Shown here one piece after another: positions 35,944 to 54,700 of a stretch of 64,000 nt of DNA. Origin of the DNA: a virus. The DNA is taken from positions 1-64,000 of IMG/VR virus record IMGVR_UViG_3300020553_000008. One strand, written 5' to 3'. The position numbers and the translations under genes were made by a program. Each line of letters starts with the position of its first letter. Position 1 is the stretch's first letter. A model generated the notes under the pieces. It worked only from the letters and a program-made list of their open reading frames with translations. It did not search any database and had not been told where the DNA came from.

Positions 35944-38900
35944 TTAAATTGTTGGTACGCAAGTAGTACTTATATATGTACCTTGTACAGCTGGGTGGCA
36001 CGGATATATCAATTCATTTGGTTGAGAGCACGAATATCCTTGGTTACAAACACTTTGATATAAGACCCATCTATATGCAGTATAAGGAGATGGAAGAGAT
36101 TCTAAAACAACAGCTACTTCAGAATCATTAGTGCTTGATAATCCCCCATAAACATCACAATAATAGTAACATTCCCCAGCATTCACGGGTGGAGGTGGGG
36201 GTGGTGGCGGAGGCGGCGGCGGAGGCGACGATGGCTCATTACATCTACTACAATACGATCCACTAGGACCATATACATATAATTCTACAACATGTGTTAC
36301 ATTAGCCCTTAATGGAGTTAAGGCACAATTAGGAGCACAATTACCACAATCATTATAGTGGCAAGTCATATGAGTAATTGTAACAGAGGAGCTTAATGGT
36401 AAAGAACTACTGGAGGCGGTGTTTAGTGAATCTTTAGGTAATTGACCTGTCCACGTTACAGCCACCGGGCCTGAACCACATCCAGCATCTTGATAGTATA
36501 TTTGGTTAAGAGGTTTGATAAATAATATAGCATTTTGATTGCTTTGTAATATACCTTTTAGCGAAACTGTTATAGATCCATTTGCATTAGTTACACAATT
36601 AAATATACTCAATGGTCCTGTTGCCAATCCTCTTGTTGGGGTCGGAGTTGGAGCAGGAGTTCTTGTCGGTGTTACAGGATTAGATGATCCGCATGGTCCT
36701 GCTAGTACTATACCATTTCCAGAACTATATCGAGGTATATATAATGAGCCAGTAGTCTGATCGACATCTAAATGTCCAAGATATTGAGGACCTATTTTGT
36801 TAATAATAGATCTGTTCTGCTTAGTTTCTAAATTAACGCCAACAACATAATTATCCGTTAAATTATTATTATAGGTTATATAATATCCTACTTTATTATT
36901 TTTATCTATCTTTAAGAAATTTTCCACGTTATAAGAGGATCCAAGAAGATCGTTAACTATAGATATGGTACTTAGTAAAGATGGATTTTGTTGATAATAC
37001 GAAGTTGATTGATTTAATTCATAAATTCTAATAGAGCTTTGTGATCCGGCCTGTCTAGCATCAAATGAATATAATTTATTATTAAATATATATGGAGTAA
37101 CTGATATCGATCCAGGAGAAAAATTATTTATGGTCGTAACTGCGTATGTCGAACCATCTATTATAAACAATGTATGCTCAGGAGAGGCTCCAACATGATT
37201 ACTAACTACTACATAAATCTTATTATTATTTTCATCAACAGATACATTTCCATTGCCAAAAAGTTTATTTAACGAAATTGATGTTTCTATAGTATCTGTT
37301 GAGCAATTTATAGCTGTTAGGATTGCATTACTATTAGAATCATATCTCATAATAAAAATTTTATTAGTCACACTATTTATTGCTAAGGCTGATGGATGTA
37401 TTTTGCTTTGCAAAGATATGGTATTAACTAATGAATCTGTTGATCCATTTATTACCAGTACAGAGCCATTATTAGGTGTTCCATAATTTATAAGATAAAG
37501 TTTATTTAAAGACTCATTAATTATTAAATTACCGAATTCAGCGCCTGCTGGTCCAGATATCGAGGATGTTATACTTTTAGTTATACTATTTACAACTCTA
37601 ATTCTATCACTAATTACATCAACAAGATATAATTTTTTACTACTATTATTAAAGTAACAGCCATAAGCTTCTGTGGTTGGAAATAATACCTCTGTAGAAT
37701 GAGTACATTGTGTTAAAGGTAATGGTGACGAAGATGGTGTTCTCGTCGGAGTTCTTGTTGGGGTAACAGACGGAACAACAGCGGCCACGGTTGATGTTGG
37801 AGTGACCGTTATTTGAGGAGTTCTAGTTAATGTTATGCTTGGTGTTGGTGTGGGTGTTGGAACAACACATTCATAACCAGAACATCTTAGTGCTACTCTA
37901 CCAGCATTATTGTATACAGTATCTACGACCCGTGTTCCTGCATTATTAATTTGCATAGTTTGAAATATATTCGCGCTACGAATATTATCGCTTAGTTTTT
38001 CTTTATATATCCAATTATTATTTACATATTCATATATTATTATTCTTTCATTGATAATACTTATAGGATCTTTATGCATAATTGCTAAAATATTATTAGT
38101 TTCAGAAATTGCTGCTCTACCATCCTCATTTGTAGCAAAAATAGATGTGATGGGAGATCCCTTTAGGGTCCATTGATTATTTATTAGAGTATAAACTTCT
38201 ACTCTACTTCGTCCGCTAGCCACGAATGTATCATTACTTTTTGCGTCAATATACCATAGTATATTACCAGCTGATGGAGAAAAAGATGTACTTATTGTTG
38301 CCGATTTAACCCATGCATTATTAATCCAATCATAAACTCTTACTATACCAGTAGTAATACCAATAAATAATCTACTACCATCAGGACTTAATTTAATATT
38401 CGGATAATATCCTACTAAATCAGTAGAATTTTCGCCAAATATTGAGAATCCTTTTTGTGTCCATGTTCCATTAATAAATTCGTATACTTTAATTTTACCA
38501 GCTGTTGCTTGTTCGGCCCCGGTGGAGCCAACATAGTCTGGACTACCAATAGCAATAGTATTACCGTCACTGCTCATACTTACAATAGAACCTAGACCCT
38601 CCCCAGTATTTATTCCTAATATATCTGAACCTTTTTTAGACCAAGATGTACCATTCCACATATATACAGTAACTTTTCCTTTATATTGTCCAACAGTAGA
38701 ATATATACTTGTTGAATGTCTTGGTGTTCCTATCGCTACTGTGGTACCAGCAGTATCTGTATCTATAGAATCATTACCGCTAAATGCAGTAACAATCTCG
38801 GCATTATCTAATGTTATCCTACTAGCTCTTTCGATCCAGGCTGTATTGTTCCAATCATATACTACTACCGTATTAACAAATAATCCAGCTATTGTGGATC

Positions 38901-41900
38901 CGTTTCTACTTAAAGAATATGTTACTAATCCACGATTACTAAGTTGTGGTTCCAATAGTTCTCCTAATTGTTTGTAAGAGCATACGGGCAACATAGTTGG
39001 TGTTGGAGTAACTCTGGGGGTAGATGTAGGAACAGGAGTTCGTGTTGGGGTAGGTGATGGCGTTGGAGACGGTACTGCTTGACCTATCGGTAATACGCAC
39101 ACACAATCAATCGCTGCTCCAAAGCAACCACAATTAGCGCATGTGCTTTCAAATCTGATTGTTGTTGTTGTGCTTGAAGCGGTAAAATCTATTATTTCTG
39201 CGATCCATCCCATGCTTTCGTATGATTCAAATGTTGTATTGCTAGGATCAAAAGAGAAATTATATTCTTCAGCATAGGTGCCTGTGATAACAACCTTAAA
39301 TGTTCTTATAACATTAATATTTCCATAATTATTACCAGATTTTTTAAATGATAGTCTATAAACACCATTTACAATCGTTGGTATATTTTGTTCAATATAA
39401 CCAGGACTACAAGAATTTAAATCAACCCATACTTTAATTGGTTGATTTGTCCCATAGAAGTGCAACGAATGAACATCAACATTATTGGTTACCCAATTAG
39501 CTGCTGTTCCTAAATTCATTGATGGTACACTAATCTCGAAATCACCATTAACAACCAAATTATTAGCACAAGATGGACAATCAGGAACCACCGGTATAGT
39601 AATTGGTGGAGGACAAACAAAGTTAGTATCGATTTCTTGACCACGTCCAGATGATGTTGCACTAGACGGATCTGGTAAATTATTGGATTTGGTGGCATAT
39701 GTAAAATATGCAGCATTAGCGGATCCGCCAGAATAGTATGCCGCTTTATACCATTCATTTTCAGTAGGAATAGCATATTTTGCTGCCGGATTTCTTGTTA
39801 TCGATGACTGACTCATGTCATACGCGCCATTTTCTGTGATTCCATAGTCATTAGAGTCTTTAGAATCTATTTTTCCATTACTAAGCCAATTACAATATCT
39901 AGCTAAATCAAACCATGTTATATAATTTACTGGTTTATCTCCCATATTTAATTTTGTTGTATAATAATATAAAGAATCTTTTTCGGTGCGTAATATACCT
40001 CCTCTAGGATCGTTGCTCATAGCTTCTTTATATAGATTATATCTATCATAAACACTAGCAACAGAATTTAAAAATTGTGCATATTCACAATTGGTTAATA
40101 GATATTTTTTGATTGCGTATCTATAAACGACAGAGCCGTATCCATTAGTATCAGCAACATTATTAACATCATCAATTAATGCATAATTAATAAGATCTAA
40201 CGATCTAGTATCTCTAACTATTATTCGTCCACCAATAGTAGCATTAGCTGATATTGGAGACTGTGGACTTCTATAGCCTGATCCAAGTTCTAGACTATTG
40301 GATATCCATGATCCTCCTCTAACAATTCTACTACTACTAACCTGACCCTCTGTCCATTCATTTAAATTACCAGTTTGATCATACGTTCCATAAAAACTAC
40401 TACTACCATTTGTTCCGACAGTTGTTACATTACCTGTCTGATCGTTCCACACAGCAACAGAACCATAATTAGCAGTTGATACCAAATTGAAACTTGCTGG
40501 CGAAGCTGGCTCATTAAATGATTCATTACAAGAAATACATTGTTTTGTTGGATAATGTAATTTGTAAAAAATCTCGTATTCATGACATACTATTAAATTA
40601 TTAAGCTGAATTTGCATAACATCAGTAGTTAATAATGTACAGTTTTCTCTATTAGCAGAACTCCAACAATCTTTAATATCTTGATACGATGAAGGAGATG
40701 TTTGTATTCTATAATTAATATTTAATCTATTATTTCCTTTTTGTGGCTTTAGATAATTTTGCTGTATAATATTATCCGATGTTAAGGTTTTAAATGATAA
40801 ATTTTGTGCAGAAGATCCTGATACTTGTAAACAGCTTTGAGCAACTTGATTTGTAGCAGCAGCGTATATCCAATCGAGCCATCTTTCTGACGAGCAATTA
40901 AATTCTACAAACTGATATTGTAAAGTTTCTACAATATATTCTATAAACTCATTAATCCCCGGTTCTATATCGGCCCTATTCATTGAACCGCTTACGTCTA
41001 CAAATATTAAAATTCTAATTGGGGTCTCTTGATCTGTTTGTTCAATAATCGGTAAGAAGTGAGTTTCGAATTGTGTTAAAATATCGTTATAAGTTGTTGG
41101 TCTACTTACTTTAACCACCCTGTCTGTTCCAAAAGGAAGTTTAGGAACAGCATTAGATGGATATATCCATTGTGTACTATCTGCTGGAGCTAATACTATA
41201 AATCTTTCAGCATCTACAGCTCCATTTTCTATTAGAGATGTAACATTATTGGTATCTTCGACCCAGTCTTTTCCTATAGTACCTAGGAGTCCAACATAGT
41301 CCGGATTTGCTTCGTCAATAAATATCATGATAAAATCTGTTGGTAAAATAACAGCTGGTGGTATGTATATACCAGTTACTTCTGGTCCAATAAATTCGCA
41401 ATGTTTAGTTAATGTTACTACTCTAAAATCATAATATTCTCCTAATTCTAATCCTGTTATAGATGTCGATGCTGTATCTAATATAAAAGCGTCTCTAATC
41501 CATGATGATGAACTAGTTTTATACTCTATAACATATCCTTCTATATCTGGATACTGTGGTATTTGATCTTCCCAGCTCAACGATACAATATTATCACTAA
41601 CCTCGTAATTAGTAATTATTGATGATGCTACAGTAGTAGCGCCACACTCAACAAAGTCCGGACACTCCAAAATAAATGATTCGGTTCTTGATACTCCACT
41701 AGTTTTATCTTTTATGATAGTTTCCAGTATAAATTGTTTTAACTCAACATTTTTAGTAATGCCAACAAAAGCATTTTGTCTAGTATTAGATGCTTTAAAA
41801 GTAAAAAATTCTTTATCTAAATATGCTCTATTACTAAAATCTGCATCTAAGCATTTATCTGGTGACGGAGTAGGAGTTGGTGTGGGGGTGACGCTGGGCG

Positions 41901-44900
41901 TTGGTCCAAATACTGGTAATGTTGGTGGCGGGGTTGTGGGAGGAGAAACTAAATTGCAATCATAGTCTGTAAATTGTACTTTTCCATCCGGCTTGCCATT
42001 ACCAAAACCATCTGCTTCTACGCACTGAAATAAATTAGAGAAAGATCTATCTGGTAAATCAGATTGTGTGGGCCATCTCCAATATCCAGCATTGGTACCT
42101 CCTCCTTTATAGTATGCTGCTTTATACCATTCACTATAGCTTGGTAAAAAATATTTAGCATTAGCGTTTCTAACAATAGGTTGGTCAAAATTTTCTGCTG
42201 TTGTTCTGCCATTAAGTGTATACGCGCCATCTTCTGTTGTTGTATTGTCTTGGCTACCATTAGGCTTTCCATTGTGTAACCAATTACAAAATCTAGCGGC
42301 AGAAAACCAGTTAACAAATACAACTGGTTTATTATTCATAGGCTGCGGTCTATTGTTTGCAGAAGTTGTTTTTGAACTATATGTATAATTACCAGACGTT
42401 CCACTTCTAACAATACCTCCTTTGGTATTGCTTATCATATTAGTATCGTATAATTTATAGATATCTGTTTTTGCTACAGCATTAAGAAATTCTACATATT
42501 GACAATTCGTTACTTCGTACTGACCAATTTTATATTCATAAGATACAGCCCCTACAGGATCTGTGGTAAAAATTGGATTATTAGGATTACCAGCATCTCC
42601 AACAGTAACAAAATATGGTAAATTATTAGGATTAGTTAAACTCGCTATTCTAAATCCATGACTAGCTACTTTTAGTGTCGGATCTTTAGCATGATAGGAT
42701 GTTTTTGTGTAATCAAGCTCATTATCTGGACTATCAAATCCTCCACCCAGACACCATCTTCTCGTTACTTTACGACCACCCACTACCGAAACATGATGTT
42801 CTTCTGTCCATTCTTCAGCGTTCCCACCCTGATCATATGTACCATATGCGCTAGGTCCACCATTAGAGCCAACTGTAGTAACATTACCATTGTCAATCCA
42901 AATTGGGCCTTTGGCACATAATTTTAGATTTGCACTATTAGGACCGGGAGGAAAAGTTAAAGAATATACACTATAAATACCTAAACTATTAACAGCTCGA
43001 CATGTGATATATAAAATTCTTGGAGTTAATTCGTAGTAAAAAATATTAACAGGATCGACAGCATCAAAATCTATGGTGTCTTGTACAGTATCGTTGAGTA
43101 GATTGATTACAGACAAGGAATTTGAGTCTGTATTACACACATATAATTTTTTAGCAAAATTAATCAATGCCATAGACGTTGGCGATGATCCAACAGCGAT
43201 TGTTTTTTCTATGGTTCTTGTTGTTAGATTAAGAACACTAATATTATTACTAAGATAATTTGTAATATATCCTTTATCATTTAATGCTACAAATGACCAT
43301 GGTCTTAAACCACTAGAATTAATATTGCTAATAACACTATCGTTAACCGGATCTATGATACTAATAGAATTAGATTCTGTATTACAAACATAAATTAAAT
43401 TATTGTGAAGATACAGGGATCTCGGACCATTCTGTACTGTTATTGATGTTATAAATTGATATGTTGTGGCATTAAAAATATTGATAGTAGAATTGGGCGA
43501 ACTTACTGTGCCAGTATTAGTAACATAAATTTTATTATTTAGATATAGCAAGCTAGCAGGACTGGTACCGACATTCAATATAGTTTGTATAACAGTGTTA
43601 TTAGTAGCATTTATAATACTTATACTATTATCATCAGAATTAATAACATAAATTCTATTATCTATAGAATTACTAATAATATCAGTTGGGTTATTGCCAA
43701 CAGATACGGTGCTAAGTTGTGTTTTTGTTGCGAGATCAACAATACTAATAGTGTCGCTGTCACTATTTGTAACATAAGCTCTTGTTCCAAATAGAAAAGT
43801 GGCGCTGTTAGGATTTGATTGAACTGTAACTAACTCCAAATCTTTTATTGGAGGTAATAGAGGAGGTGGCGGTGGTGGAGGCGGTGGAGGAGGTGGTGGC
43901 GGTGGAGGAGGTGGTGGCGGTGGAGGAGGAGGCGGAGGTGGCGGAGGAGGAGGTGGAGGAGGGGGTGGTGGACTAGCTATCAAAATACTAGCAGCTCCGG
44001 TAACATCTAGTCTGCCACCAGTACTAATCGGGGCAGCGCCATTGGTAGCAAAAGCTGGGGTTGGTATTGCGCTAAAAAGAATAGCGTTTTTAATTTGTGC
44101 GGCAGATACGTTTGGAAAAATACTTGCCAATAACGCAACAGCTCCGGCAACATGGGGACAGGCCATACTAGTTCCACTAATAGAAAAATAGTCACCATTC
44201 TTCCATGTGCTTAGTATGCCACCTTCTTCAGTCTGGTCTCCTCCTGGTGCTGCTATATCAACATTAGCTAAGCCATAATTAGAAAATATACTCCTAGCCC
44301 CAGTAATAGTCATGCTTGCTACAGATATAATACCATCTGTTCCGCTTGGATCGTTCCATGTATAAGAGGATGGATATTTTGGTAATGAATCATTATTTGT
44401 TCCATTATTAGCAGCAGCACATACGCTAATTATACCTTGAGCATAAGCGGCTTTCATAGCATCTAATTGAGATTGAGAAAATGATCCGCCGGCATAACTA
44501 TGATTAATTACAACAATATTTCTGCCTTTTGGATCATTATTTTTAAATAATTGTTTTAATGATGTTGTATAATTTACAGCTAGTATAATTTTAGCCAAAC
44601 TGCTTGTAAGTTCAAGACTACTACATGGTGGTGGTTTGTCACTTCTACAAGAGAATATTTTTCCATTCAATAGACTAACTCTTTTACAAACTCCTGTCAC
44701 TCCCAAATTATTGTCACCAAAAGCTCCTATTGTACCAGCAACATGGGTTCCATGACCATTATAATCATTATATCCTTCGTTATTGGTGCTAAAATCTCCT
44801 TCTAGATTATTATTAGAATCATATGTGAATCTAAGATTACCAGCTAAATCTGCATGAGTAATCATATTATTTAATAATATGCCAGTATCTATAACCACAG

Positions 44901-45363
44901 CATAAACATCATGAGTTCCTATATGTCCTCGATTCCATAGGGGGACAACATTTATATGAAAATTGCCTCTCGCTGGATTTAGACCCCATAATTCGAACCA
45001 TCTACTATCATTACTCAAAGAATTATAACTTTTATTAATTATTGGTTCTTCGAATCTAATTATTTCATCAGCTTCAAAAAATGCTATATTTTTATTATAA
45101 TTCAATGTATTTTGTGTTTCAAAAGTATTTTGCCTAACCAAAAACATCCCAGGAAGACCCAATCCTCTAATAACAGTATATTCAGGTCCTAAAATAGTAT
45201 AAATATCATTTATAGATTCCATTCTAGATATTGCTTCTTCAGTAAGTCTAATAATAAAATTACTAGAATACTCTGATTGAGAATTAATTAATATTGATTC
45301 TATTTTAGTATCAACAAATTGAGTAAACCATATCTCTGATACTTTATTATAATCACTATTCAT
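35944..45363 (-). CDS. 3,139-residue mosaic virion protein: subtilase, propellers, vWA, permuted FGE-like domains
   Basis: Order of domains (residues). A prodomain-like start, 1-130, ends in NDSRWFELWGL as in secreted subtilases. The S8 subtilase follows (130-460) with D159 (VVIDTG), H204 (GHGTHVAG), oxyanion N320 (AAANN) and S399 (GTSMACPHVAG): the full catalytic set. 37 prolines (465-501). A YVTN-type beta-propeller (about 505-790; seven 'YV(T/C/I)N' strands). Formylglycine-enzyme-like domain 1, permuted (807-1122). A TPTP linker, an FN3-like domain (1240-1335), and a vWA domain with MIDAS DVSGSM (near 1450). Permuted FGE-like domain 2 (1630-1908). A DUF642-like domain (NLVVNGDFE, about 1930-2090). 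Propeller 2 (2127-2498), propeller 3 (2555-2892), and a Cys-rich C-terminus with 13 prolines. Probably a surface-exposed tail fibre or adhesin with protease; its target is unknown. Confidence 0.85.
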   Translation of the reverse strand: MNSDYNKVSEIWFTQFVDTKIESILINSQSEYSSNFIIRLTEEAISRMESINDIYTILGPEYTVIRGLGLPGMFLVRQNTFETQNTLNYNKNIAFFEADEIIRFEEPIINKSYNSLSNDSRWFELWGLNPARGNFHINVVPLWNRGHIGTHDVYAVVIDTGILLNNMITHADLAGNLRFTYDSNNNLEGDFSTNNEGYNDYNGHGTHVAGTIGAFGDNNLGVTGVCKRVSLLNGKIFSCRSDKPPPCSSLELTSSLAKIILAVNYTTSLKQLFKNNDPKGRNIVVINHSYAGGSFSQSQLDAMKAAYAQGIISVCAAANNGTNNDSLPKYPSSYTWNDPSGTDGIISVASMTITGARSIFSNYGLANVDIAAPGGDQTEEGGILSTWKNGDYFSISGTSMACPHVAGAVALLASIFPNVSAAQIKNAILFSAIPTPAFATNGAAPISTGGRLDVTGAASILIASPPPPPPPPPPPPPPPPPPPPPPPPPPPPPPPPPPPPPLLPPIKDLELVTVQSNPNSATFLFGTRAYVTNSDSDTISIVDLATKTQLSTVSVGNNPTDIISNSIDNRIYVINSDDNSISIINATNNTVIQTILNVGTSPASLLYLNNKIYVTNTGTVSSPNSTINIFNATTYQFITSITVQNGPRSLYLHNNLIYVCNTESNSISIIDPVNDSVISNINSSGLRPWSFVALNDKGYITNYLSNNISVLNLTTRTIEKTIAVGSSPTSMALINFAKKLYVCNTDSNSLSVINLLNDTVQDTIDFDAVDPVNIFYYELTPRILYITCRAVNSLGIYSVYSLTFPPGPNSANLKLCAKGPIWIDNGNVTTVGSNGGPSAYGTYDQGGNAEEWTEEHHVSVVGGRKVTRRWCLGGGFDSPDNELDYTKTSYHAKDPTLKVASHGFRIASLTNPNNLPYFVTVGDAGNPNNPIFTTDPVGAVSYEYKIGQYEVTNCQYVEFLNAVAKTDIYKLYDTNMISNTKGGIVRSGTSGNYTYSSKTTSANNRPQPMNNKPVVFVNWFSAARFCNWLHNGKPNGSQDNTTTEDGAYTLNGRTTAENFDQPIVRNANAKYFLPSYSEWYKAAYYKGGGTNAGYWRWPTQSDLPDRSFSNLFQCVEADGFGNGKPDGKVQFTDYDCNLVSPPTTPPPTLPVFGPTPSVTPTPTPTPSPDKCLDADFSNRAYLDKEFFTFKASNTRQNAFVGITKNVELKQFILETIIKDKTSGVSRTESFILECPDFVECGATTVASSIITNYEVSDNIVSLSWEDQIPQYPDIEGYVIEYKTSSSSWIRDAFILDTASTSITGLELGEYYDFRVVTLTKHCEFIGPEVTGIYIPPAVILPTDFIMIFIDEANPDYVGLLGTIGKDWVEDTNNVTSLIENGAVDAERFIVLAPADSTQWIYPSNAVPKLPFGTDRVVKVSRPTTYNDILTQFETHFLPIIEQTDQETPIRILIFVDVSGSMNRADIEPGINEFIEYIVETLQYQFVEFNCSSERWLDWIYAAATNQVAQSCLQVSGSSAQNLSFKTLTSDNIIQQNYLKPQKGNNRLNINYRIQTSPSSYQDIKDCWSSANRENCTLLTTDVMQIQLNNLIVCHEYEIFYKLHYPTKQCISCNESFNEPASPASFNLVSTANYGSVAVWNDQTGNVTTVGTNGSSSFYGTYDQTGNLNEWTEGQVSSSRIVRGGSWISNSLELGSGYRSPQSPISANATIGGRIIVRDTRSLDLINYALIDDVNNVADTNGYGSVVYRYAIKKYLLTNCEYAQFLNSVASVYDRYNLYKEAMSNDPRGGILRTEKDSLYYYTTKLNMGDKPVNYITWFDLARYCNWLSNGKIDSKDSNDYGITENGAYDMSQSSITRNPAAKYAIPTENEWYKAAYYSGGSANAAYFTYATKSNNLPDPSSATSSGRGQEIDTNFVCPPPITIPVVPDCPSCANNLVVNGDFEISVPSMNLGTAANWVTNNVDVHSLHFYGTNQPIKVWVDLNSCSPGYIEQNIPTIVNGVYRLSFKKSGNNYGNINVIRTFKVVITGTYAEEYNFSFDPSNTTFESYESMGWIAEIIDFTASSTTTTIRFESTCANCGCFGAAIDCVCVLPIGQAVPSPTPSPTPTRTPVPTSTPRVTPTPTMLPVCSYKQLGELLEPQLSNRGLVTYSLSRNGSTIAGLFVNTVVVYDWNNTAWIERASRITLDNAEIVTAFSGNDSIDTDTAGTTVAIGTPRHSTSIYSTVGQYKGKVTVYMWNGTSWSKKGSDILGINTGEGLGSIVSMSSDGNTIAIGSPDYVGSTGAEQATAGKIKVYEFINGTWTQKGFSIFGENSTDLVGYYPNIKLSPDGSRLFIGITTGIVRVYDWINNAWVKSATISTSFSPSAGNILWYIDAKSNDTFVASGRSRVEVYTLINNQWTLKGSPITSIFATNEDGRAAISETNNILAIMHKDPISIINERIIIYEYVNNNWIYKEKLSDNIRSANIFQTMQINNAGTRVVDTVYNNAGRVALRCSGYECVVPTPTPTPSITLTRTPQITVTPTSTVAAVVPSVTPTRTPTRTPSSSPLPLTQCTHSTEVLFPTTEAYGCYFNNSSKKLYLVDVISDRIRVVNSITKSITSSISGPAGAEFGNLIINESLNKLYLINYGTPNNGSVLVINGSTDSLVNTISLQSKIHPSALAINSVTNKIFIMRYDSNSNAILTAINCSTDTIETSISLNKLFGNGNVSVDENNNKIYVVVSNHVGASPEHTLFIIDGSTYAVTTINNFSPGSISVTPYIFNNKLYSFDARQAGSQSSIRIYELNQSTSYYQQNPSLLSTISIVNDLLGSSYNVENFLKIDKNNKVGYYITYNNNLTDNYVVGVNLETKQNRSIINKIGPQYLGHLDVDQTTGSLYIPRYSSGNGIVLAGPCGSSNPVTPTRTPAPTPTPTRGLATGPLSIFNCVTNANGSITVSLKGILQSNQNAILFIKPLNQIYYQDAGCGSGPVAVTWTGQLPKDSLNTASSSSLPLSSSVTITHMTCHYNDCGNCAPNCALTPLRANVTHVVELYVYGPSGSYCSRCNEPSSPPPPPPPPPPPPPVNAGECYYYCDVYGGLSSTNDSEVAVVLESLPSPYTAYRWVLYQSVCNQGYSCSQPNELIYPCHPAVQGTYISTTCVPTI
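36187..36225. repeat. 13-proline run in the mosaic protein
   Basis: Thirteen consecutive NGG triplets on the + strand, read as CCN on the - strand, give 13 prolines just before the last Cys-rich domain of the 3,139-residue protein. All four proline codons occur. Confidence 0.97.
39640..40475 (-). other. Circularly permuted FGE/SUMF1-like domain, copy 2
   Basis: In the 3,139-residue protein, about residues 1630-1908. It begins with the part that normally ends the fold, YGTYDQTGNLNEWTEG and IVRGGSW, and then continues with the part that normally begins it: YRYAIKKYLLTNCEYAQFLN, KPVNYITWFDLARYCNWL and PTENEWYKAAYY. Approximate borders. Confidence 0.75.
42000..42945 (-). other. Circularly permuted FGE/SUMF1-like domain, copy 1
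   Basis: In the 3,139-residue protein, about residues 807-1122. The usual C-terminal half comes first (YGTYDQGGNAEEWTEE, CLGGGF, HGFRIAS), followed by the usual N-terminal half (YKIGQYEVTNCQYVEFLNAV, KPVVFVNWFSAARFCNWL, LPSYSEWYKAAYYKGG). Approximate borders. Confidence 0.78.
43861..43971. repeat. 37-proline run in the mosaic protein
   Basis: Thirty-seven consecutive proline codons (residues 465-501) between the subtilase and the first beta-propeller. The codons mix CCT, CCA, CCG and one CCC without a fixed DNA period, so it is not a simple microsatellite. Confidence 0.97.
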
Positions 45364-45391
45364 AATAGATATTATTTGTCCTAAATATTAA

Positions 45392-46528
45392 TTAAGATTC
45401 TGTAGCACAAACATCAAGACCACATCTTATTGCTATACTATCATATATTTTATGTTGACTTCTATCATGAGTAAGCTCTATTGTAACAAGACTTTGTTCG
45501 TATAGTGCCAAATTAGGAACCAGATAAGTATAAATATTTCCATTACCATTCTCACCAAAATAAATATCTCCAGACGATGGAACAAAACCAACAGTTCCGA
45601 TGCCCATATTAGCTGTTGTAAACTTATAAGTATATTTTTCACCAGGATTAGCATTGTAAACTTCTACTATCATAAGTTTTGGACTACTACTAGTACAGCA
45701 TTCTCCAGATAGGGATATTTGTGGAGAACCAGAAATTGTTACTAATCCATATTTAATACATGGTAAACAATCATCGCAAATTGTCATAATTGAATTACTA
45801 AAATTCATTTCTCCATTACAAGATTGTGGAGTAACACTTAATTGTATAGTATTAAAAATTTTAGCTTCGTCAGTATTTTTAACATACATATTATGATTCA
45901 TAGAGCCAGGATGATCAGATGAACATTCACCAGAATTTGCACAAAAGACCAATCTATGCTGCATATCATATGAGTCTGATGTGGGAATAAAAGTGCCTGA
46001 TTTTGGCGAAGCCATTATGCATGGCCAATTTGATCCTAAGCTATATAAGCTATAATTATACGATGCTCCTGCTTCTAATCCACTAAAAGATGATACAAAA
46101 TTAAAAATGTTAGAATTGCTTAGTATATACTGGTCGCATACTTCAGAGCCACATCCACTCAATTCTATACCAATATTTGGTAAACATCCAGTACATTGTA
46201 CAAGTTGCTGGGATGAAAATATTTCTGAATTATCTGATAAACTTACAACCTTTGCTTTTACGCTTGTAAATAATTCTTGATTAGCATATCCACATTGTAA
46301 TGGTTCATACGGTAATACATTAGATAAATTCATAGCTAGACCTGTACTAGCACAAAAAGATACTGATGTATTTATAGAGGTTGTTTTTGCTGTTGCTTCA
46401 AAAGACCCTGTCCTAGGAATAGCAACGGATGGCCAGTTTCCACCAAGTCCTAAAATTTCATATCTATAATTTTCTCTCTTAATTAATCCACTAACTGGTA
46501 TCGAGATATGAATATTATTGTTTTTCAT
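45392..46528 (-). CDS. Virion protein of three cysteine-containing beta repeats
   Basis: A 378-residue protein. ATG 46528 is chosen because SD TAGGAA lies just upstream and the previous gene stops at 46537; a TTG at 46546 would extend it by six residues. It consists of three tandem copies of a roughly 120-residue beta domain. Copies 1 and 2 share the plan: GL and a Y-x-Y strand, then L-(G)-x-NWP, a Pro-x-x-G-(S/T)-F turn, FCA-S-(T/G)-G, and a closing Cys pair (C-x-x-C) before the next copy. Copy 3 is more diverged and ends CGLDVCATES. The fold is probably Ig-like; the paired Cys could bind metal or form disulphides. It belongs to the fibre/tail-tip block; the neighbour upstream has two more copies. 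Confidence 0.75.
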   Translation of the reverse strand: MKNNNIHISIPVSGLIKRENYRYEILGLGGNWPSVAIPRTGSFEATAKTTSINTSVSFCASTGLAMNLSNVLPYEPLQCGYANQELFTSVKAKVVSLSDNSEIFSSQQLVQCTGCLPNIGIELSGCGSEVCDQYILSNSNIFNFVSSFSGLEAGASYNYSLYSLGSNWPCIMASPKSGTFIPTSDSYDMQHRLVFCANSGECSSDHPGSMNHNMYVKNTDEAKIFNTIQLSVTPQSCNGEMNFSNSIMTICDDCLPCIKYGLVTISGSPQISLSGECCTSSSPKLMIVEVYNANPGEKYTYKFTTANMGIGTVGFVPSSGDIYFGENGNGNIYTYLVPNLALYEQSLVTIELTHDRSQHKIYDSIAIRCGLDVCATES

Positions 46529-46536
46529 AATTTTTC

Positions 46537-47748
46537 CTATAAGCAATCATTGCAATAGATTGTTAATGATGGACTATAAACACTATTACTACCCTGAAAC
46601 ATATAGTATGGTTCTGCGCATGTATTTGGCGTAACTTTAAGCCTTAGAGATGAATAATAAGTTTCGACAAACTTTGGGTCTAAAACATAGTCTATAACTG
46701 AGCTATCATTACTAGGACATAATGACGATGTTGGACAAAATACTATTTTAGAGGATAATTTAAATTCTCTAGAATTATATGTAGTAAATGTCCCGCTTAT
46801 TGGAGTGATAAACATTGCTGGCCAGTTTGCTCCTAGGCCAACATATTCGTAGTTGTAGTTTTGTGTTGGTTCTAGTCCACTTATATGAGCAGTAATATCC
46901 ACAGTACTTGTATTAGTACCTAAGTTAATAACACTAGATCCTTCTTGAAGAATAACTTTAACTCTTGGTAAACAATCTTTGCATTCTATAGTAACAGGAT
47001 TACTTTTAACAGAAGATCCGTTAAAAGACAAAGGGATAACTTCAAGTTCAAAAGTACTATATAAATGACTTTCATTATATGTTGGACAAGTATTTGGTAT
47101 TACTCCAGAAATAATGTTTCTATTTGTTACACATTCACAACAAGCTCCAGATGTTGGACAAAACGACATAATAGAACTTAGATTACCACTAGTTTCAGAC
47201 GGTTTTATAGTTCCAGAAAGCGGGGCTATGGTTATAGGCCAATTACTATCAATACCTTTATAAACATAAGAATATCTCTCATATGGCTGTAGACCACTTA
47301 TTGTGGGATTAAGTATAGTTTTATAGTCATCTTCTAATAATTTATAAGACAAATTAGTAATAACAGGTATAACACCTATTCCTCCTCCAACACTGCCACC
47401 AGGAATTGTACCCATAATAGGTACATATATGGGCAAATCAGCAGTTGTTCGTAAAATAACATAATAAGCAGATTGTGAAGAAAGTTGTGTTAGTGTTGAA
47501 TCTTCATGCGGAACATAAGCATACGAAGAATTACCAAATTCATCTGTTAATTGTGATCGTTTTGTCCAAAACACTGGTATAGAATTATCTATATTTTGAC
47601 TACTATATATAGTATCTATAGATTGAATAAACTTATTATATTGTAGTTTTTTATCATTATCAGAAGATATTTCTTCTGGCATCTCCATAAGATTTAATGG
47701 TTCTGTACCAGCGTATGTAAAGATAAAAAATTGATTATTAATTATCAT
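46537..47748 (-). CDS. Virion protein with two cysteine-containing beta repeats
   Basis: A 403-residue protein from ATG 47748; TTG 47760 is an in-frame alternative four codons upstream. The N-terminal roughly 115 residues are a separate region (FIFTYAGTEPLNLMEMPEE). They are followed by two copies of the repeat shared with the next gene: GLQPYERYSYVYKGIDSNWP and GLEPTQNYNYEYVGLGANWP, each then P-x-SGT, FCPTSG or FCPTSS, several Cys, and CKDCLPR or CNDCL at the end. Cys content is high for a phage structural protein. It precedes the three-repeat gene by eight bases, so the two probably form one assembly. No known family is recognised. Confidence 0.75.
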   Translation of the reverse strand: MIINNQFFIFTYAGTEPLNLMEMPEEISSDNDKKLQYNKFIQSIDTIYSSQNIDNSIPVFWTKRSQLTDEFGNSSYAYVPHEDSTLTQLSSQSAYYVILRTTADLPIYVPIMGTIPGGSVGGGIGVIPVITNLSYKLLEDDYKTILNPTISGLQPYERYSYVYKGIDSNWPITIAPLSGTIKPSETSGNLSSIMSFCPTSGACCECVTNRNIISGVIPNTCPTYNESHLYSTFELEVIPLSFNGSSVKSNPVTIECKDCLPRVKVILQEGSSVINLGTNTSTVDITAHISGLEPTQNYNYEYVGLGANWPAMFITPISGTFTTYNSREFKLSSKIVFCPTSSLCPSNDSSVIDYVLDPKFVETYYSSLRLKVTPNTCAEPYYMFQGSNSVYSPSLTIYCNDCL

Positions 47749-47798
47749 AAAATATAGCAAATAAGTTTAAAGTAAGTAATATAATAATACACCATTCG

Positions 47799-48677
47799 CT
47801 AAGGTATGCTTGCTAAACAAATAGTATCGTTACTAACCCTGCCACCAAGAGTGATTTCTGCTATAGATGGAATATTATTTGGTTGATCGGCAAATAATAG
47901 TTCAAAATTTTTAATAGGTAATAAGATTTTAATTTTATTATTAATACCTAAATTATTGGGAATAAATTTTACAATTGTTTTGTTGTTTGACGATAATGTC
48001 CAATTATTTGTTTCATCCAAAATTATGTAATTATTTTCATATTGTCTTCTCTCTAATTGAGATGGACTAGCACAAAATGTTGCTGCTGTAAAGGTATAAT
48101 TACCATCTATTTGTTCCTCAACTCCAAGATTGATTGATAATTCTATATCGGCAGATTCTGAGGACGCTATAAAATTCTTGATAGTAGCTGTTACTGTTTC
48201 TGGTATTCCTGGACCAGTAACTTTCATACCAACAAATAATGAATTAAAATTACTTCTATTATTGAGCCTCAGAACAGAATGATTGTTTGATACTCCTTCT
48301 AGTGTATTTCCATTTAATATGGATCCTTCAAATGAGAACGACGTAGACGGAGAACATACTACTAATAAATAATCTGTATATAATATACTATTAGAAACAT
48401 CTCTAATATTAGTTTGAATAACAGTTTGAGTTTCAAAATTATGATTTGCTTTGATTGTTAAATTAACTGTCGGTTTAAAGTTTTTATTTTTAGATATGGT
48501 ATAACTAGGATTATCCGGTAAAAACTTAATAACTGGTGGAGATATTTTTGGTAAAGTTGTGGATACTTTAAAGTCTACTATATAAATATCTTTTTGTGGT
48601 AAATTAGGAGGCGTTGGAAAAGAGAGTAAAATACCTTTTTCACCGTCTTCGATAGAGTAATTTACTGTATTAATCAT
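47799..48677 (-). CDS. Beta-rich virion protein, unknown
   Basis: A 292-residue protein, all-beta by pattern, with Ile/Asn/Ser-rich strands and no catalytic motif. The middle (FVGMKVTGPGIPETVTATI) resembles a short adhesin or fibre repeat, often preceded by 'G-x-x-V-x-G'. Two 'FCAS' and 'VVCS' Cys motifs recall the Cys repeats of the neighbouring proteins, so distant relation is possible. The start ATG overlaps the preceding stop (ATGA). A 38-50 base gap follows it with nothing notable. Confidence 0.6.
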   Translation of the reverse strand: MINTVNYSIEDGEKGILLSFPTPPNLPQKDIYIVDFKVSTTLPKISPPVIKFLPDNPSYTISKNKNFKPTVNLTIKANHNFETQTVIQTNIRDVSNSILYTDYLLVVCSPSTSFSFEGSILNGNTLEGVSNNHSVLRLNNRSNFNSLFVGMKVTGPGIPETVTATIKNFIASSESADIELSINLGVEEQIDGNYTFTAATFCASPSQLERRQYENNYIILDETNNWTLSSNNKTIVKFIPNNLGINNKIKILLPIKNFELLFADQPNNIPSIAEITLGGRVSNDTICLASIP

Positions 48678-49216
48678 AGAGAAGCTTCAATACATTTAAA
48701 AGTTAAAATTTGTTCAGTTAACACACTATTATTACTATCTAGCACACTAAATTTAAAAATACTAATATTATTATATGTTTCAGGGTTTACTGATATATTT
48801 AGTGGTATTGTTGCTTTTCTAAGAGTAATAGTATTATCATTTTGTGTTTCTTGATAATTCTCGTATTTGGGTTGGCCAATCGATACTAGATTTGTAGTAG
48901 AATTCTGTGTTAACTCTACAAAAGCATACGAATATTCAACTGCTCCACTTTTTAGATTAGTTACAACAGCTGATAGTAAATCTCCAGCACAACAAAAATT
49001 TTCTATATTAGATACTGCTTGATTTTTATAGCTAAATGCTATAACTGGCATCGGTTCAAAGCAAATTTTTTGACCGATCCACTCTATAATAGATCCATCA
49101 ATAAGTTTAGAATATAATTTGCCTGTTTTGCTATTCATAACTAGTTCGCCAACCTCTAGTTGTTCTGGGCTTGGAAAACCATTACTACTTATATCTCTTT
49201 TAATTAAAAGCCTCAT
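48674..49216 (-). CDS. Small tail-fibre-associated protein
   Basis: A 180-residue protein. The N-terminus, RDISSNGFPSPEQLEVGELV followed by NSKTGKLYSKLIDGSIIEWIG, matches the short module 'P-x-x-L-x-x-G-E-L-x-x-N-x-x-D-G-x-L-Y' at the start of many phage fibre and virion proteins. The rest is beta-rich with FCCAGDLLSA, a double Cys reminiscent of the repeats in the next genes. Overlaps of four bases on both sides tie it tightly to the fibre operon. A fibre attachment or decoration role is inferred. Confidence 0.65.
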   Translation of the reverse strand: MRLLIKRDISSNGFPSPEQLEVGELVMNSKTGKLYSKLIDGSIIEWIGQKICFEPMPVIAFSYKNQAVSNIENFCCAGDLLSAVVTNLKSGAVEYSYAFVELTQNSTTNLVSIGQPKYENYQETQNDNTITLRKATIPLNISVNPETYNNISIFKFSVLDSNNSVLTEQILTFKCIEASL

Positions 49217-51711
49217 AAGCTACAAACTCCTGTAAATAATATAACTCCGAAATCCCAATTACTTAATACATCATTATTTTGTTCCTCTTCTTCAGGATCA
49301 ACGGCATAAGCGGTTAATCCAGAAGCATAATAATATGAATATGTTCCCTGGCCACTACTATTCCATGCGCTGATTCTATATAAATAGTCTTTAGTAGAAT
49401 TCAAACCATATATTGTTTCAGAATTTATGGTTATAAAGTTATTATCTGATGGAGAATTATGATAATACCAATTAATTCCATAGTCATCTGATTCTTCTAT
49501 AATATAACCAGAAAATACACCAATCCCTAATTGAGCACTAGTATTCCAAGATAAAGAAATAGCAGAAATATCTCCATCGAAAACTCTTGTACCAGTTACT
49601 GATATAGGACTTGTTGGAACATTATTATTTGGGCTAAGTAATTGTGTAGCTTCAGAATATTCTCCAATACCAATGGAATTCTGTGCAGCTACTCTGAATA
49701 AAATATTACTGCCTGCTATTGTTTTAATTGTAGCAGAAGTCTGATCTGATAGTCCTCTGTGTAGATAAGCTGGGTTTTCATCTTCGTCATCCTGAGTATT
49801 TGTCCAAGTTTCTCCATTATTAAAAGAGAACTGAACAAGATAATTTACAATTTTGCTTCTGCCATCATCGACTGGGGCGTCCCATTGTAAAGAATATTCA
49901 TTATTGCCAAGACCAGCATTATTATGACCAATTGCTCCTCTAATATTAGTTGGAGCATCTGGTTCTGTTGGATTAATTCTAGGTGTTCGAGATATAATTT
50001 TACCATTATAATCAACTGTTAATAAGGCATTTGCAATATATTTACTTGTTCCGTCTAAAGACGGTTTCGGTCTAAGATACACATCCTCTGCTACTAATGC
50101 GGTAGAATAGGTATTCCCGCTCACAGTTAAATCGGCATATGTAGATAATAATCCTTCTCCACTAACTATACTGGCTAATGAAAAAGCATTACTTGTATTA
50201 ATACACACTTTACCAATTTCGTCGTAACTAAATCCGGATGGTATGGTTTTTTCTCTATCTAGATATCTATCAAAAAACACTCCTGTTGGAGATCCAGATA
50301 CAGCATTAGGAATATGTGCATCTACTCTAAATGTTGGAATTAATCCTTGTGGAATAAAATTCTGGTTTAATTTATAGACACTATCATTATAATTATTATA
50401 TGGAATATTATTTTTAGAATAAATGAGAAAATCTATATTTTCACCAAGCATATTAAAACCAGTATGTATGTCTGGTCTAATACTAATATTATTTAATGTT
50501 GATGGTTTAAAAGTTAATTCTGTTGTAACTTCTTGTCCTAAGTTATTTGTGTATGTAACATTATCTGTGGCGAGTGGTTCCATCTGCATAGCCAAATAAC
50601 CACCTTTTGTGACAGAAAAAATGAATACATTAGTATCTACAGCGGCCCCAGTGCCGTCTAATCCTATTGGTGGATCTCCAGGATGCTCTGGAGCTATTTC
50701 TAGTTCGAAACAATCTACTGGCTCATTGTCAACATTACCATTTTCATCGGCTGCTGGAGGATTTGGATCAGTTATCGAAACTTCTGTTCGTATACTATCT
50801 TCAAAAATATATTCTCTATCAATATCTAATTGAGCTGGTTCTTTAGCAACATAAGCCATTTTAGCATAGCCGACGATAACTTCGCCAAAAGCATTTTCTA
50901 TACACAACGTATCCGAACCAGTACCTAGTTCCTTAACTATTTGTTCTAGCCCAGGCTGTCCTGGTACTATAGCAGCATAAGGCGACCACCAACGGTCTTC
51001 CGTATAAATATAAAGTCTATTATTTCTTAGTAACGCAGGGCGTTTTGGATATCTTATCCAGCTCACACCGACTCTCTCTAATCCACTCAAATGTACATCA
51101 GGATCATAATTTTCTCTTAAATATGTAGCTGGTTGCCATTTGGCTACTTCTCCTGATCCATCATGTGTTAATATAAATCCTTTATATGAATCAAGATCAT
51201 TATTAGGCCCTAAGCTTATACCCATATCGGCTTCAATGACTTTATTAATTTCTACTTTTTGATTAGTAAAAGATATACCGGGATAAGTATTTATTTGTTT
51301 CTCTTCATTATTCATTACATACAAAGGAGATGATGGTGTGCCAGATGGAAAGCATATTGGTCCACCAGTAGCAGAAACAAAATATGAGGTAGCAGCGGCA
51401 TTCGAGTCATTTAATTTGTAGATTAATCCGCTACTCTGTCCACTATACAATGGAATAGGCTGTCCACTCAAGTTAATTCTACCAAAGTTTTCGGCAACTA
51501 TCGTTTGTGCTCGTAGTCCGCTAGCATCTACAAATGAGGGACTAATCAATTTGATACCACTATTAGCAGCTAGATACATACTACCACTGGCTGCTAAACT
51601 AACTTGATTACTACTTAAAACATTAAAATATATTCCGTCTATTTTATTATTGCCGGTTTTAATAGCAACACCCGGCCAATTGCGTGGATTTAGTATATTA
51701 TACCATAACAT
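49213..51711 (-). CDS. Tail-fibre-like protein with two C-terminal FN3 domains
   Basis: An 832-residue protein. The N-terminal third has fibre-shaft-like repeats (SLAASGSMYLAANSGIKLIS). The middle includes VTKGGYLAMQ and ISIRPDIHTGFN, a domain shared with the 1,196-residue neighbour. The C-terminal roughly 250 residues hold two fibronectin type III domains: PTEPDAPTNIRGAIG to YLVQFSFNNGETW, then PISVTGTR to GYIIEESDDYGINWY with YRISAWNSSGQG. FN3 domains are common on phage tail and fibre surfaces and may bind carbohydrate or host surfaces. SD AGGAAAT precedes ATG 51711. Acidic E-rich tail near the end. Confidence 0.72.
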   Translation of the reverse strand: MLWYNILNPRNWPGVAIKTGNNKIDGIYFNVLSSNQVSLAASGSMYLAANSGIKLISPSFVDASGLRAQTIVAENFGRINLSGQPIPLYSGQSSGLIYKLNDSNAAATSYFVSATGGPICFPSGTPSSPLYVMNNEEKQINTYPGISFTNQKVEINKVIEADMGISLGPNNDLDSYKGFILTHDGSGEVAKWQPATYLRENYDPDVHLSGLERVGVSWIRYPKRPALLRNNRLYIYTEDRWWSPYAAIVPGQPGLEQIVKELGTGSDTLCIENAFGEVIVGYAKMAYVAKEPAQLDIDREYIFEDSIRTEVSITDPNPPAADENGNVDNEPVDCFELEIAPEHPGDPPIGLDGTGAAVDTNVFIFSVTKGGYLAMQMEPLATDNVTYTNNLGQEVTTELTFKPSTLNNISIRPDIHTGFNMLGENIDFLIYSKNNIPYNNYNDSVYKLNQNFIPQGLIPTFRVDAHIPNAVSGSPTGVFFDRYLDREKTIPSGFSYDEIGKVCINTSNAFSLASIVSGEGLLSTYADLTVSGNTYSTALVAEDVYLRPKPSLDGTSKYIANALLTVDYNGKIISRTPRINPTEPDAPTNIRGAIGHNNAGLGNNEYSLQWDAPVDDGRSKIVNYLVQFSFNNGETWTNTQDDEDENPAYLHRGLSDQTSATIKTIAGSNILFRVAAQNSIGIGEYSEATQLLSPNNNVPTSPISVTGTRVFDGDISAISLSWNTSAQLGIGVFSGYIIEESDDYGINWYYHNSPSDNNFITINSETIYGLNSTKDYLYRISAWNSSGQGTYSYYYASGLTAYAVDPEEEEQNNDVLSNWDFGVILFTGVCSL

Positions 51712-51723
51712 CTTGATAATTTC

Positions 51724-54700
51724 CTATGAATAAAAATATGGACCCCTTGCTCTTCCAATTTCGCCGCACCAGAATGGTAAATTATTAGTATCAATTAATT
51801 CTTCACTATCGCAGGACAAATCTATCATATCTTCTGTACCATCAGGAATTAATGGTGGAGAAGTTTCTCCGTATACGCCGTCCAATCTCGGAACAGAAGT
51901 TTTATTACCCCAAAACGTAGTATTTGCTGTTCCATCTTTTTGTCTTGGCAAAGGAGGTGGAACATTTGGTAATGGAGCAGTCGGCCCAGTCGTCTGAGTT
52001 GTTCCAGCGTCTTCATCATCCGGATCTGGTGGTATAACAGGATCCCATCCGATATCTGTTAATCTAGACTTAACAGTACCATCTTTTACAAATATCTTAT
52101 CAACAACCAACCATCCACTGATCGTCACATCTCCATATAAAGTTCTTGGTGTCAAAGAATTTGTTCCGACATCTTCGCTTGCAATTAGATACGGCTCATC
52201 TGTATTAACAGTAACGACTGGATATCCTGTAGTAACAACATTATTAAAATTTTGAAAATATGCTGCTTTATGCCATTGATGAATATCTGGTAAAAAGTAT
52301 TTTCTAGTATTATTAGTCAGTATTCTATAACTATTACTACCTACTGGCAATATGGTATATGCTCCGTCATTCAGTATCTCAGCAGTAGATTGAGATGATG
52401 TTAGTCCTGTCGGAGCGCCATTATGAAGCCAGTTCATATATTTTAATGAATTAATATAACTAACAAAAGTTACTGGCTTATTACCCATATTTGATTTAAT
52501 AGAATATGAATTATTAATACCATTGGTGCTGAATATGATACCACCTTCTGGTTGGTTTGTCATATCAGAAATATACAGACCGCTACTAAATGGATCATTG
52601 CCGGTGGCAACAGCATTTAGAAAAATATTATATTGAGCATTTGTGACTTCATATTTACCTATTCTATAATTTTTATTAACTTTACCCAAATTATCAATAG
52701 GTACTAACGAATATGAATTTCCATTTCTAAGATAAAGATTTCCGGTATCAGGTATATTGTCTCCATCTGTTACAATAACAAATTGAAGACCTAATATGGA
52801 ACTTATAATATTATTATCTGTTTGTCCTTCGGTGCTTGCGACTCTAAATCCGATATGATCATGTCCACTATTAGCTGTTGCATATTCTATACTTTTTAGA
52901 TATACTGATGGATCGTTTCCAATTGCTGAGATTGTTTCAAAAGAGCCACCAGCGGCCATCTGGCTACTAGCGGTATATTCTTTTACTGCCGGATCTATCC
53001 ATTCTGCGACGTTTCCATTTTGATCATAAGTACCGTAATAACTATCTACTCCATTAGTGCCAACAGAAGAAACTATACCACTAAATAAATTATCAGTAGC
53101 ATTATAGTTAAAATTAGCAGTGCTGAATGAACTGTTTATTCCACTGCCACCTGTATTTATAAGAATAGCAGCAATATCGTTAGCATTAGTAGCATAGGGT
53201 GTATAGATACCGGAAAATCTTTCTACAGAACCTATATTGGCGTAGACTTTAAGCGCTGGGCTAGGATCATTACCATAGATAGCAAAATTAATATCTTTTC
53301 TACCAGTATTAAATTCTGTGTCAACTAATGGTCTTATACTCAAAACATTAGAGCTTGAATCAGGGATTACTCCAACAACACTCTTTTGCATTGTTAAGTA
53401 ACCAGCGCGAGTGATGGATACTACAGATACGGCGTTAATCGTTGTTGTTGTAACATTTTGATCTAATAATAATTCTATTATAAAACCATCGTCAAATACT
53501 ATATCTGTAACTATTCTATAAACTGTCGCTGTTCCTGTTACTATTTCTACTTGATCTCCAACAGCGAATTCATCAACTGGAACATCAGCATCAAATATAA
53601 TTTGTTTTAAACATATGCTGCCTGTTCTGGCATTAAACTTTGTCCAAATAATATCTTGTTCGGTAAGAAAATAATCATTAATATCGTATAGGCCTTGAAT
53701 ATATCCATTAGATGATGTGGTAAGAATTTTATTAGAGCCAACATTACTAATATTAATACTATTTCCACTAACAGATATTCCACTTGCGGCTAATATACGA
53801 CCACTTGTTGAAACACTAAGTAAGCTGCCTGTTGCTAAATTATCTAAAAATAAATTAGTAGGATAAAGATTTGTAATAGCTAATGAGCCTTGTGAAGATA
53901 TTGAGCCAGAGCCAAGTGATAATGTATTAAAACTCGCAGTAATGTTACGGTTGGCATTTGTAAATGTAAGAGATGTATTATTTTGTGTACCAATGGATAA
54001 TGAGTTCAATGTTGAAGCATTAAATGATGATCCAGAGATAGTTACCGAGCCATTACTATTTAGATTTATTCTTTGTTGATTATTATATCCTATATTAATA
54101 TTGTTTAATGATCCTGATATTAAACTTTGTTGATTATTACCAGAACTAACGCTAAGAACTAATCCGCCATAACCATCTGTAGTGTTAGATGCTATACTAT
54201 ATAATTGAGCATAGTCTTTTTGATTATTATTAGAGTCTTTACCAGCTAAATTAACTATTGAGCAAACATCTCCATTATTCAAACCTGATGGTTTATGATA
54301 TACTGTGAGTTTTGCAGGTTGGCATGTGGTCCTATTTTCTAATCTTAGTATCTCACTACAACTATAATTAACAACATGAAAAATAGTTTGTGGTCTTGAT
54401 CCTGATGGAATATTAATTCCTACTCTACCATCATAACTAAAGAATAGATTACGATAGTTTTGACCACTACCATAAATTATAAAATCGCTACTTTTTAGAT
54501 CTTGATTAAATATTGTATTAGCATTACCAGATGTTGGGATAATTGAATGAGCTAATGATTCGGAACTTGATCCTAGCAATAGCTTATTGGTGTTTCCGGA
54601 ACTCCAGTATAGTTGTGATCCTAGTAATCCATTTGAGCCATCATTATATTGAAAAGAATAAATATCTCCTCCTGGATTGGCTTGAGCAGAAAAATTATCC

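Follow-up and report, generated by a model that had tools for sequence, protein, structure and literature searches.

Introduction

The described domains closest to the one reported here belong to the FGE-sulfatase family PF03781, which includes human FGE/SUMF1, SUMF2, EgtB, PvdO and the protein of structure 5aoh. Related in fold are the phage protein Mtd, TvpA and TaqVP; the available parts of PMC5006420 and PMC6328139 present these as proteins of normal order that are targets of retroelement mutagenesis. According to the same parts, the two termini of the normal C-type-lectin fold are adjacent, on neighbouring antiparallel strands. An altered connectivity in the same superfamily is described for collagen IV NC1, in the accessible part of PMC3779223, as segment swapping rather than circular permutation.

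In this study we analysed a stretch of 64,000 nucleotides (hereafter the window), which comprises nearly all of the 64,032-base virus record IMGVR_UViG_3300020553_000008. Two long proteins encoded on its minus strand contain three segments, copies A, B and C, that resemble PF03781 in that both halves match the profile and the fold matches in two pieces. They differ from the PF03781 enzymes in the swapped order of the halves and in the absence of the catalytic cysteine pair. We name the halves by their place in the normal domain, so that in all three copies the C-half precedes the N-half. With a probability of about 0.78, each segment is one complete domain of the FGE-subtype C-type-lectin fold, circularly permuted, which most likely originated by tandem duplication and most likely binds ligands, without enzymatic activity, in tail or fibre proteins. 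The permuted form was found in many uncultured viruses and in none of the sampled bacterial relatives. Handles beginning with L denote fetched loci.

Order of the halves in the three copies

The two carrier proteins were searched with the PF03781 profile and six pieces were obtained. In every copy the piece from the end of the profile came before the piece from its start (Table 1); the chain order of the family, N-half before C-half, was thus reversed in three of three copies. A sequence-only reading of the window had placed three copies with swapped halves in two proteins, and the profile search agreed with these places and this order. The whole proteins scored 85.9 and 43.9 bits, above the curated cut-off of 23.3 bits. 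Taken singly, the N-half pieces exceeded this cut-off and the three C-half pieces were below it (17.6 to 19.3 bits, E 2e-5 to 8e-5).

The order along the protein was also followed half by half, as the sequence-only reading had proposed, using half-domain hidden Markov models (HMMs) from two alignments. Alignment A3 contained permuted relatives including the window copies, and alignment A5 contained normal-order sequences only and was independent. Both confirmed the reversed order in all copies, with E-values of 2e-28 to 2e-83 for A3 and 9e-18 to 4e-70 for A5. Neither an N-half hidden upstream nor a C-half hidden downstream was detected in the two proteins: with hits accepted up to E 100, everything else that the four models matched scored below 0 bits. 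Therefore the pairing of a C-half with a hidden upstream N-half is excluded at this sensitivity.

The motifs read earlier need a small correction for copy B, which retains RGGSW and has GGR in the place of the GFR of the other copies. A further family, phrog_18508 (labelled as a kinase), matched copy A in its N-half and copy C in its C-half, and does not by itself show any order.

The two halves as one predicted compact domain

A model of copy B (292 residues), based on 92 aligned sequences (copy B and 91 others), reached a predicted local distance difference test (pLDDT) of 94.5 and a predicted template modelling score (pTM) of 0.93; the two halves are therefore predicted to form a single body. 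A first model, of the L009 copy with 17 sequences, was weaker (pLDDT 74.8, pTM 0.82), and its structural comparison gave one row at Z of at least 2 among 80 chains.

The copy B model was compared with 748 chains using a sequential aligner; most of its matches covered a single half. The N-half, over model residues of about 97-285, matched the front of FGE-fold chains: residues 102-285 aligned with 5aoh 5-196 (Z 6.2, root mean square deviation (rmsd) 3.6, 142 aligned), and the N-half aligned with human FGE 1y1h 87-279 (Z 4.7, rmsd 3.0, 121 aligned). The C-half matched the back of such chains, residues 3-94 aligning with EgtB-IV 8vig 334-442 (Z 4.7, rmsd 2.2, 85 aligned) and residues 8-98 with phage Mtd 1yu2 269-380 (Z 3.1, rmsd 2.3, 82 aligned). 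By these piecewise matches of modest Z the model belongs to the FGE-subtype C-type-lectin fold. The structure prediction suggested by the sequence-only reading thus returned one compact body, whose halves, compared one by one, matched the front and the back of the FGE fold.

The sequence profile was also run against single solved chains. SUMF2, 5aoh, TvpA (the third-best sequence match) and SUMF1 contained pieces of both halves in the opposite order; in 5aoh, residues 76-163 matched profile 186-272 (independent E-value (i-E) 0.013) and residues 199-263 matched profile 39-102 (i-E 4.6e-5). Taken together, all elements of the fold are present, their order is swapped, the old ends are joined and the unit is compact, the last according to the predicted model. 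On the order in sequence, and with support from the confident model, we concluded that the halves are swapped as in a true circular permutation.

Several structural results weigh against this conclusion. The Z values were modest, none of the 748 chains reaching 8 and ten reaching 5, and the aligner itself warns that Z below 8 may reflect merely a common arrangement. The halves were matched to known folds singly, in separate alignments rather than in one superposition. In several rows the match of the N-half ran on as far as the end of the chain (e.g. 1y1e 87-340), and some EgtB rows began within the C-half (e.g. 17-285). Foldseek with the copy B model gave no match at E 0.001 in PDB and BFVD. 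The N-half pieces in solved chains were individually weak (i-E 0.013 to 260), those in SUMF1, SUMF2 and TvpA being insignificant.

Fibres are usually trimers, and the C-half of one chain might complete the N-half of another in place of its own. Segment swapping is on record in this superfamily for collagen IV NC1 (PMC3779223, in the part available). Against such domain swapping, a single chain is modelled with high confidence as a closed domain, and a short loop joins strands that in the normal fold lie side by side (PMC6328139, in part); we consider it unlikely.

Occurrence in viruses and bacteria

IMG/VR was scanned with the three copies and two alignments as queries, four of the five scans using permuted queries; in two of the viral scans the best 80 of 228 and the best 80 of 190 matches were kept. 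Units were deduplicated by a 50-residue key, and only those with at most 30 residues between the halves were counted; many frames were cut at locus ends. The fetched loci contained 104 distinct permuted units, including window copies seen in sister contigs, and 32 normal ones, so that the order, which the earlier reading had suggested looking for in other viral proteins, was indeed encountered there. Frames around permuted units had a median of about 1000 residues, those around normal units 325. The normal-order query added 76 new loci, of which 49 were permuted only, 24 normal only, 2 both and 1 neither, with second-frame and nested cases counted as both. In two loci an insert splits the N-half; it measures about 140 residues in L213 (8197-9171, plus strand) and about 110 in L202 (residues 530-839 of the open reading frame (ORF) 1-3537).

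The closest cellular relatives found, the best 80 of at least 567 (L068-L147), are FGE-like proteins, most of them from Planctomycetota and Verrucomicrobiota, with 37-56% identity in the best segment. They have the same motifs and are in part tandem; in contrast to the window copies, their units holding both halves are in normal order. Their 104 ORFs comprised 83 with N-C, 7 with N-C-N-C, 2 with N-C-N-C-N-C, 10 with C alone and 2 with N alone, and C-N alone occurred in none of them. We also scanned 288 genomes of one phylum, scoring at most eight candidates per genome; 18 had a match at E 1e-40, and 11 of 24 rows were examined as loci (ten and L302). The ten fetched loci were normal in nine cases and tandem normal in one. 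Three further bacterial stretches, one with a match across the junction and two with partly extended matches, were normal or tandem. Thus none of these 13 further loci carried the permuted form.

Neither form was matched when copy A, the L009 copy and the normal-order L095 were compared by tblastn with 50,697 cultured phage records. The tape-measure-like protein of the window was likewise unmatched in these records, and the polymerase ORF matched 1355 of them; the absence therefore means little beyond the virus group being absent from the collection.

The two halves could be leftovers of truncated tandem normal domains, each paired with a lost or hidden partner. Bacterial tandems do share the C-to-N junction (nine ORFs among the best 80 relatives; also L298 and L301). 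This explanation is contradicted by the lack of any hidden half in the window proteins at E 100, by the pTM of the isolated unit, by the short gap between the halves (median 3 residues, maximum 19, in 94 units) and by the fact that the halves stay together in 104 distinct viral units, counted with gaps of up to 30 residues. We regard it as very unlikely.

Junction, cut point and terminal cysteines

In the permuted units the old C-terminal strand (GFR..) continues, by way of a short loop, as the old N-terminal strand (FVxVGD..). The old ends were joined through about nine residues, in copy A 'GFRIASLTNPNNLPYFVTVGD'. Such joining should be easy, since the ends of the normal fold are neighbouring antiparallel strands (PMC6328139 and PMC5006420, in the parts available). 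The junction motif NP[LN] was considered as a mark of a single origin and rejected, being present in 33 of 94 units only.

The new ends lie in the former loop between the halves, the chain having been reopened between '..PTxVxANxxGDG' and 'NSANFNxCADWNGxxGNVTTVG'. Normal-order relatives have a linker between the halves, for example 'DPTFVTASSTGVGSAGLGSTANSINGAQVADWNGQVGNVTTVG' in L075, and permuted copies end with '..DPTCVSANSVGDG' and start with 'NSANFNYCADWDGKNGNVTSVG' (L039). By this comparison just a few loop residues are missing in the permuted copies.

For the alignment of permuted copies (A4), 92 of 171 units were kept, with nearly full halves and with k-mer overlaps above 0.75 dropped; three rows identical to window copies were replaced by the window references. 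Cysteines at column 36 (NSANFNxCADW) and column 525 (PTCVSAN) occurred together in 38 of the 92 copies, both were missing in 51 and the two were discordant in 3 (Fisher p 2.8e-22, a value inflated by kinship among the copies). Copy A has both cysteines, copies B and C neither. We concluded from this covariation that the pair is probably a disulfide closing the cut loop; in about two fifths of copies it would tie the new ends and replace the lost peptide link. Besides the kinship, two observations speak against this part of the interpretation. When any cysteine in the end stretches was counted, 43 copies had both, 19 neither, 16 the start only and 14 the end only. The well-supported branches offered just four independent comparisons, nearly always four of four in the expected direction, and with this number significance cannot be reached.

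Among 102 bacterial normal-order units, 12 had one cysteine in the linker and 3 had two or more. The latter all belong to the tandem protein of L079, in whose uncut loops the cysteines stand close to the two positions in question; viral L218 is alike. The two places can therefore be close in space. Another cysteine, at A4 column 24 just before NSANY, was present in 17 of 92 copies (e.g. L160, L018, L207), 15 of which lacked the RYCNW cysteine.

Phylogeny and origin

Trees were made from 204 of 275 units, with overlaps above 0.70 dropped and nine loci repeating window copies left out. In the FastTree of both halves (204 rows) the 97 permuted rows fell on one side together with two bacterial rows, L075 and L106 (support 0.998). 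With the N-half alone, bacterial L071 was inside and permuted L177 outside (0.927); with the C-half alone, four normal rows were inside the permuted side (0.98). A 72-row IQ-TREE, with 33 of 97 permuted, 30 of 98 bacterial and all 9 normal viral rows, kept the permuted copies together except L177.

A single origin was challenged by two results of this tree: L177 grouped beside the normal-order L075 and L106 (99/31), and a single permuted clade appeared in 1% of 200 bootstrap trees, the bootstrap being unsettled. Forcing the permuted rows into one clade cost 2.16 log units (approximately unbiased test, p 0.459), so that one origin was not rejected. Given L177 and the bootstrap, there may have been a second origin or a reversal.

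Copy C paired with L067 (100/100), and copies A and B were nearest to other viral permuted copies. None of the three window copies thus has another of them as its closest relative, and the permutation therefore appears to predate their spread, in line with the sequence-only reading, which had taken it to be older than the duplication of the copies.

A second permutation frame was found in L198 (5986-6930, plus strand) and L205 (5983-6885, plus strand), with the end of the N-half, the C-half and the start of the N-half following each other. These units were opened before 'YW(L/I)PSxDEWYKAA'; their N-to-C linker resembles that of normal-order relatives, the C-to-N junction is of the same kind, and Pfam gave profile 112-254 followed by 32-109 and 36-110. 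This is the expected remnant of a tandem pair trimmed elsewhere and thus points to permutation by duplication. Tandem normal domains with short C-to-N junctions occur in bacteria (L069, L073, L079, L090, L147). Because of these tandems and the second frame, the most likely origin is a tandem duplication of a bacterial normal-order domain, whose outer halves would then have been lost.

In L045 (3901-5628, plus strand; same contig as L208 and L240) a normal FGE domain interrupts the N-half of a permuted domain, and in L026/L165 a normal copy adjoins a permuted copy. The normal copies of L026/L165 and L045 grouped with bacterial rows, the support being moderate (96/66 and 90/73), and viruses seem to have acquired normal domains separately too.

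Function

The active cysteine pair of FGE, which we take to lie between GG and GFR, was looked for in the 92 permuted copies. Two cysteines were found between these motifs in none of them and one in six; the count covers FGE-type residues only. The FGE-type enzyme was dropped on this basis. That the fold is shared with enzymes (PMC5006420, in part) would fit an enzyme of FGE or sulfoxide-synthase type; besides the cysteine count, the position of the copies in long multi-domain proteins, one of them with Mtd_N, makes such an activity very improbable. The earlier reading had preferred binding to catalysis, with CLGGGF and AAGGSF replacing RGGSW. Binding is indeed the likely function, and the reason given does not hold, copy B having kept RGGSW.

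Variability was highest between GG and GFR (3.21 bits, compared with 1.00 to 2.70 in other blocks of more than 5 residues), and this stretch would lie in the binding surface. In the retroelement-diversified relatives the variable region is in the C-half, the half holding GG-GFR (available part of PMC5006420). The FGE-subtype fold, the variable loop before GFR and the similarity to TvpA would all suit a target of a diversity-generating retroelement like Mtd or TvpA, from which the present domain differs in its swapped order. Reverse transcriptase PF00078 was found in none of 31 viral records, 30 of them with a PF03781 match and some of them fragments, and no template-repeat search was made. This alternative was dropped as extremely improbable.

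We consider the permuted domain most likely to bind ligands as a non-enzymatic module of tail or fibre proteins. The L009 protein contained Mtd_N and RCC1 above their cut-offs and a phage tail repeat below its cut-off. This assignment is weakened by the absence of tail-specific partner domains from nine of ten permuted proteins scanned, L009 being the only one to have them. Gene position, partner domains and shared neighbour genes suggest a location in the virion or tail.

It had further been proposed that the moved termini let the fold sit within a fibre chain. The results lend this no support, the termini of the normal fold being adjacent already (PMC6328139 and PMC5006420) and normal copies standing in bacterial tandems. 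A normal-order copy also stands at the end of a 1963-residue viral frame (L224).

Gene neighbourhood

In the window, replication genes occupy the plus strand, and the minus strand carries an extended series of large genes, which include both carriers and the tape-measure-like gene (Table 1). The tape-measure-like protein matched phrog_25241 (tail length tape measure protein), the best stretch being residues 2688-2730 only. At least one of the neighbour proteins of 659, 1104, 384, 407 and 832 residues recurs beside permuted copies in L193, L204, L207, L067 and L046. At the front of the 3139-residue protein a subtilisin-like S8 protease domain was found (residues 157-432; 44068-44895, minus strand; E 1.6e-41). 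Among the replication genes, with ORFs at 5734-7602, 7766-8479 and 8460-10094 (plus strand), two ORFs together make up a DNA polymerase of the phrog_405 family (profile 42-615 and 610-1054), and between them a polymerase-exonuclease-subunit ORF (phrog_192) is located. Downstream of them lies a glycosyltransferase-like gene (10586-12232, plus strand; phrog_2170, E 3e-24).

Table 1. Positions in the window of the permuted copies, their halves and terminal cysteines, and of the large minus-strand genes.
Feature	Position	Strand	Remarks
Copy A, PF03781 C-half piece	42643-42891	-	profile 162-254, first in protein
Copy A, PF03781 N-half piece	42061-42537	-	profile 36-137, second in protein
Copy B, PF03781 C-half piece	40219-40446	-	profile 159-254, first in protein
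Copy B, PF03781 N-half piece	39682-40125	-	profile 35-139, second in protein
Copy C, PF03781 C-half piece	52837-53109	-	profile 153-254, first in protein
Copy C, PF03781 N-half piece	52258-52680	-	profile 34-123, second in protein
Copy A, C-half (first)	42640..42936	-	half-domain HMM, protein 810-908
Copy A, N-half (second)	41995..42639	-	half-domain HMM, protein 909-1123
Copy B, C-half (first)	40219..40476	-	half-domain HMM, protein 1630-1715
Copy B, N-half (second)	39640..40209	-	half-domain HMM, protein 1719-1908
Copy C, C-half (first)	52834..53121	-	half-domain HMM, protein 732-827
Copy C, N-half (second)	52162..52803	-	half-domain HMM, protein 838-1051
Copy B, whole permuted domain as modelled	39619..40494	-	pLDDT 94.5, pTM 0.93
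Copy A, cysteine of new N-terminal segment	42916..42918	-	residue 5 of 41947-42930; A4 column 36
Copy A, cysteine of new C-terminal segment	42022..42024	-	residue 303 of 41947-42930; A4 column 525
3139-residue multi-domain protein	35944..45363	-	S8 protease, beta-propeller repeats, copy A, fn3, copy B, choice-of-anchor C / DUF642-like stretch, Pro-rich linkers
1196-residue protein carrying copy C	51724..55314	-	directly after tape-measure-like gene
2887-residue tail tape-measure-like protein	55316..63979	-	upstream, same gene run; phrog_25241, E 2.2e-10

Discussion

In the open-licence PubMed Central (PMC) papers searched, which included PMC7824862, PMC8195603, PMC6328139, PMC3779223 and PMC5006420, we found no description of a natural circular permutation of the FGE/C-type-lectin fold and no account of a permuted form of FGE-type domains in phages. 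PMC5401866 was considered as a precedent and set aside, the searched terms standing in unrelated places in the part available. If the domain has truly been re-wired, it would be, within the reach of these searches, the first described natural circular permutation of this fold. New here are the second permutation frame, the insertion of a normal domain into a permuted domain and the terminal cysteine pair.

A broader scenario, to which we give an even chance, is that large uncultured tailed viruses acquired a bacterial FGE-type domain and rewired it once, by duplicating and then trimming it, and that it became a widespread tail module which was repeatedly re-framed, as in the second frame and the nested domain, with a disulfide replacing the severed loop in many copies.

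Arguments for circular permutation often rest on pairs of distant structures. In the present case simple alignment suffices to compare about a hundred permuted units, normal bacterial relatives, possible tandem intermediates and a second frame, and the route of permutation is therefore testable. The covarying terminal cysteine pair offers a direct prediction that is cheaply checked. In family scans permuted domains show up merely as partial FGE matches, and Foldseek returned no significant match. Uncultured viruses would thus hold many likely adhesion modules that have so far gone uncharted, with the fold of phage receptor binding that is under retroelement mutagenesis in Mtd. A domain that was rewired and then kept makes a good natural case of circular permutation, and if our interpretation is true, the steps of permutation by duplication would be readable in living relatives.

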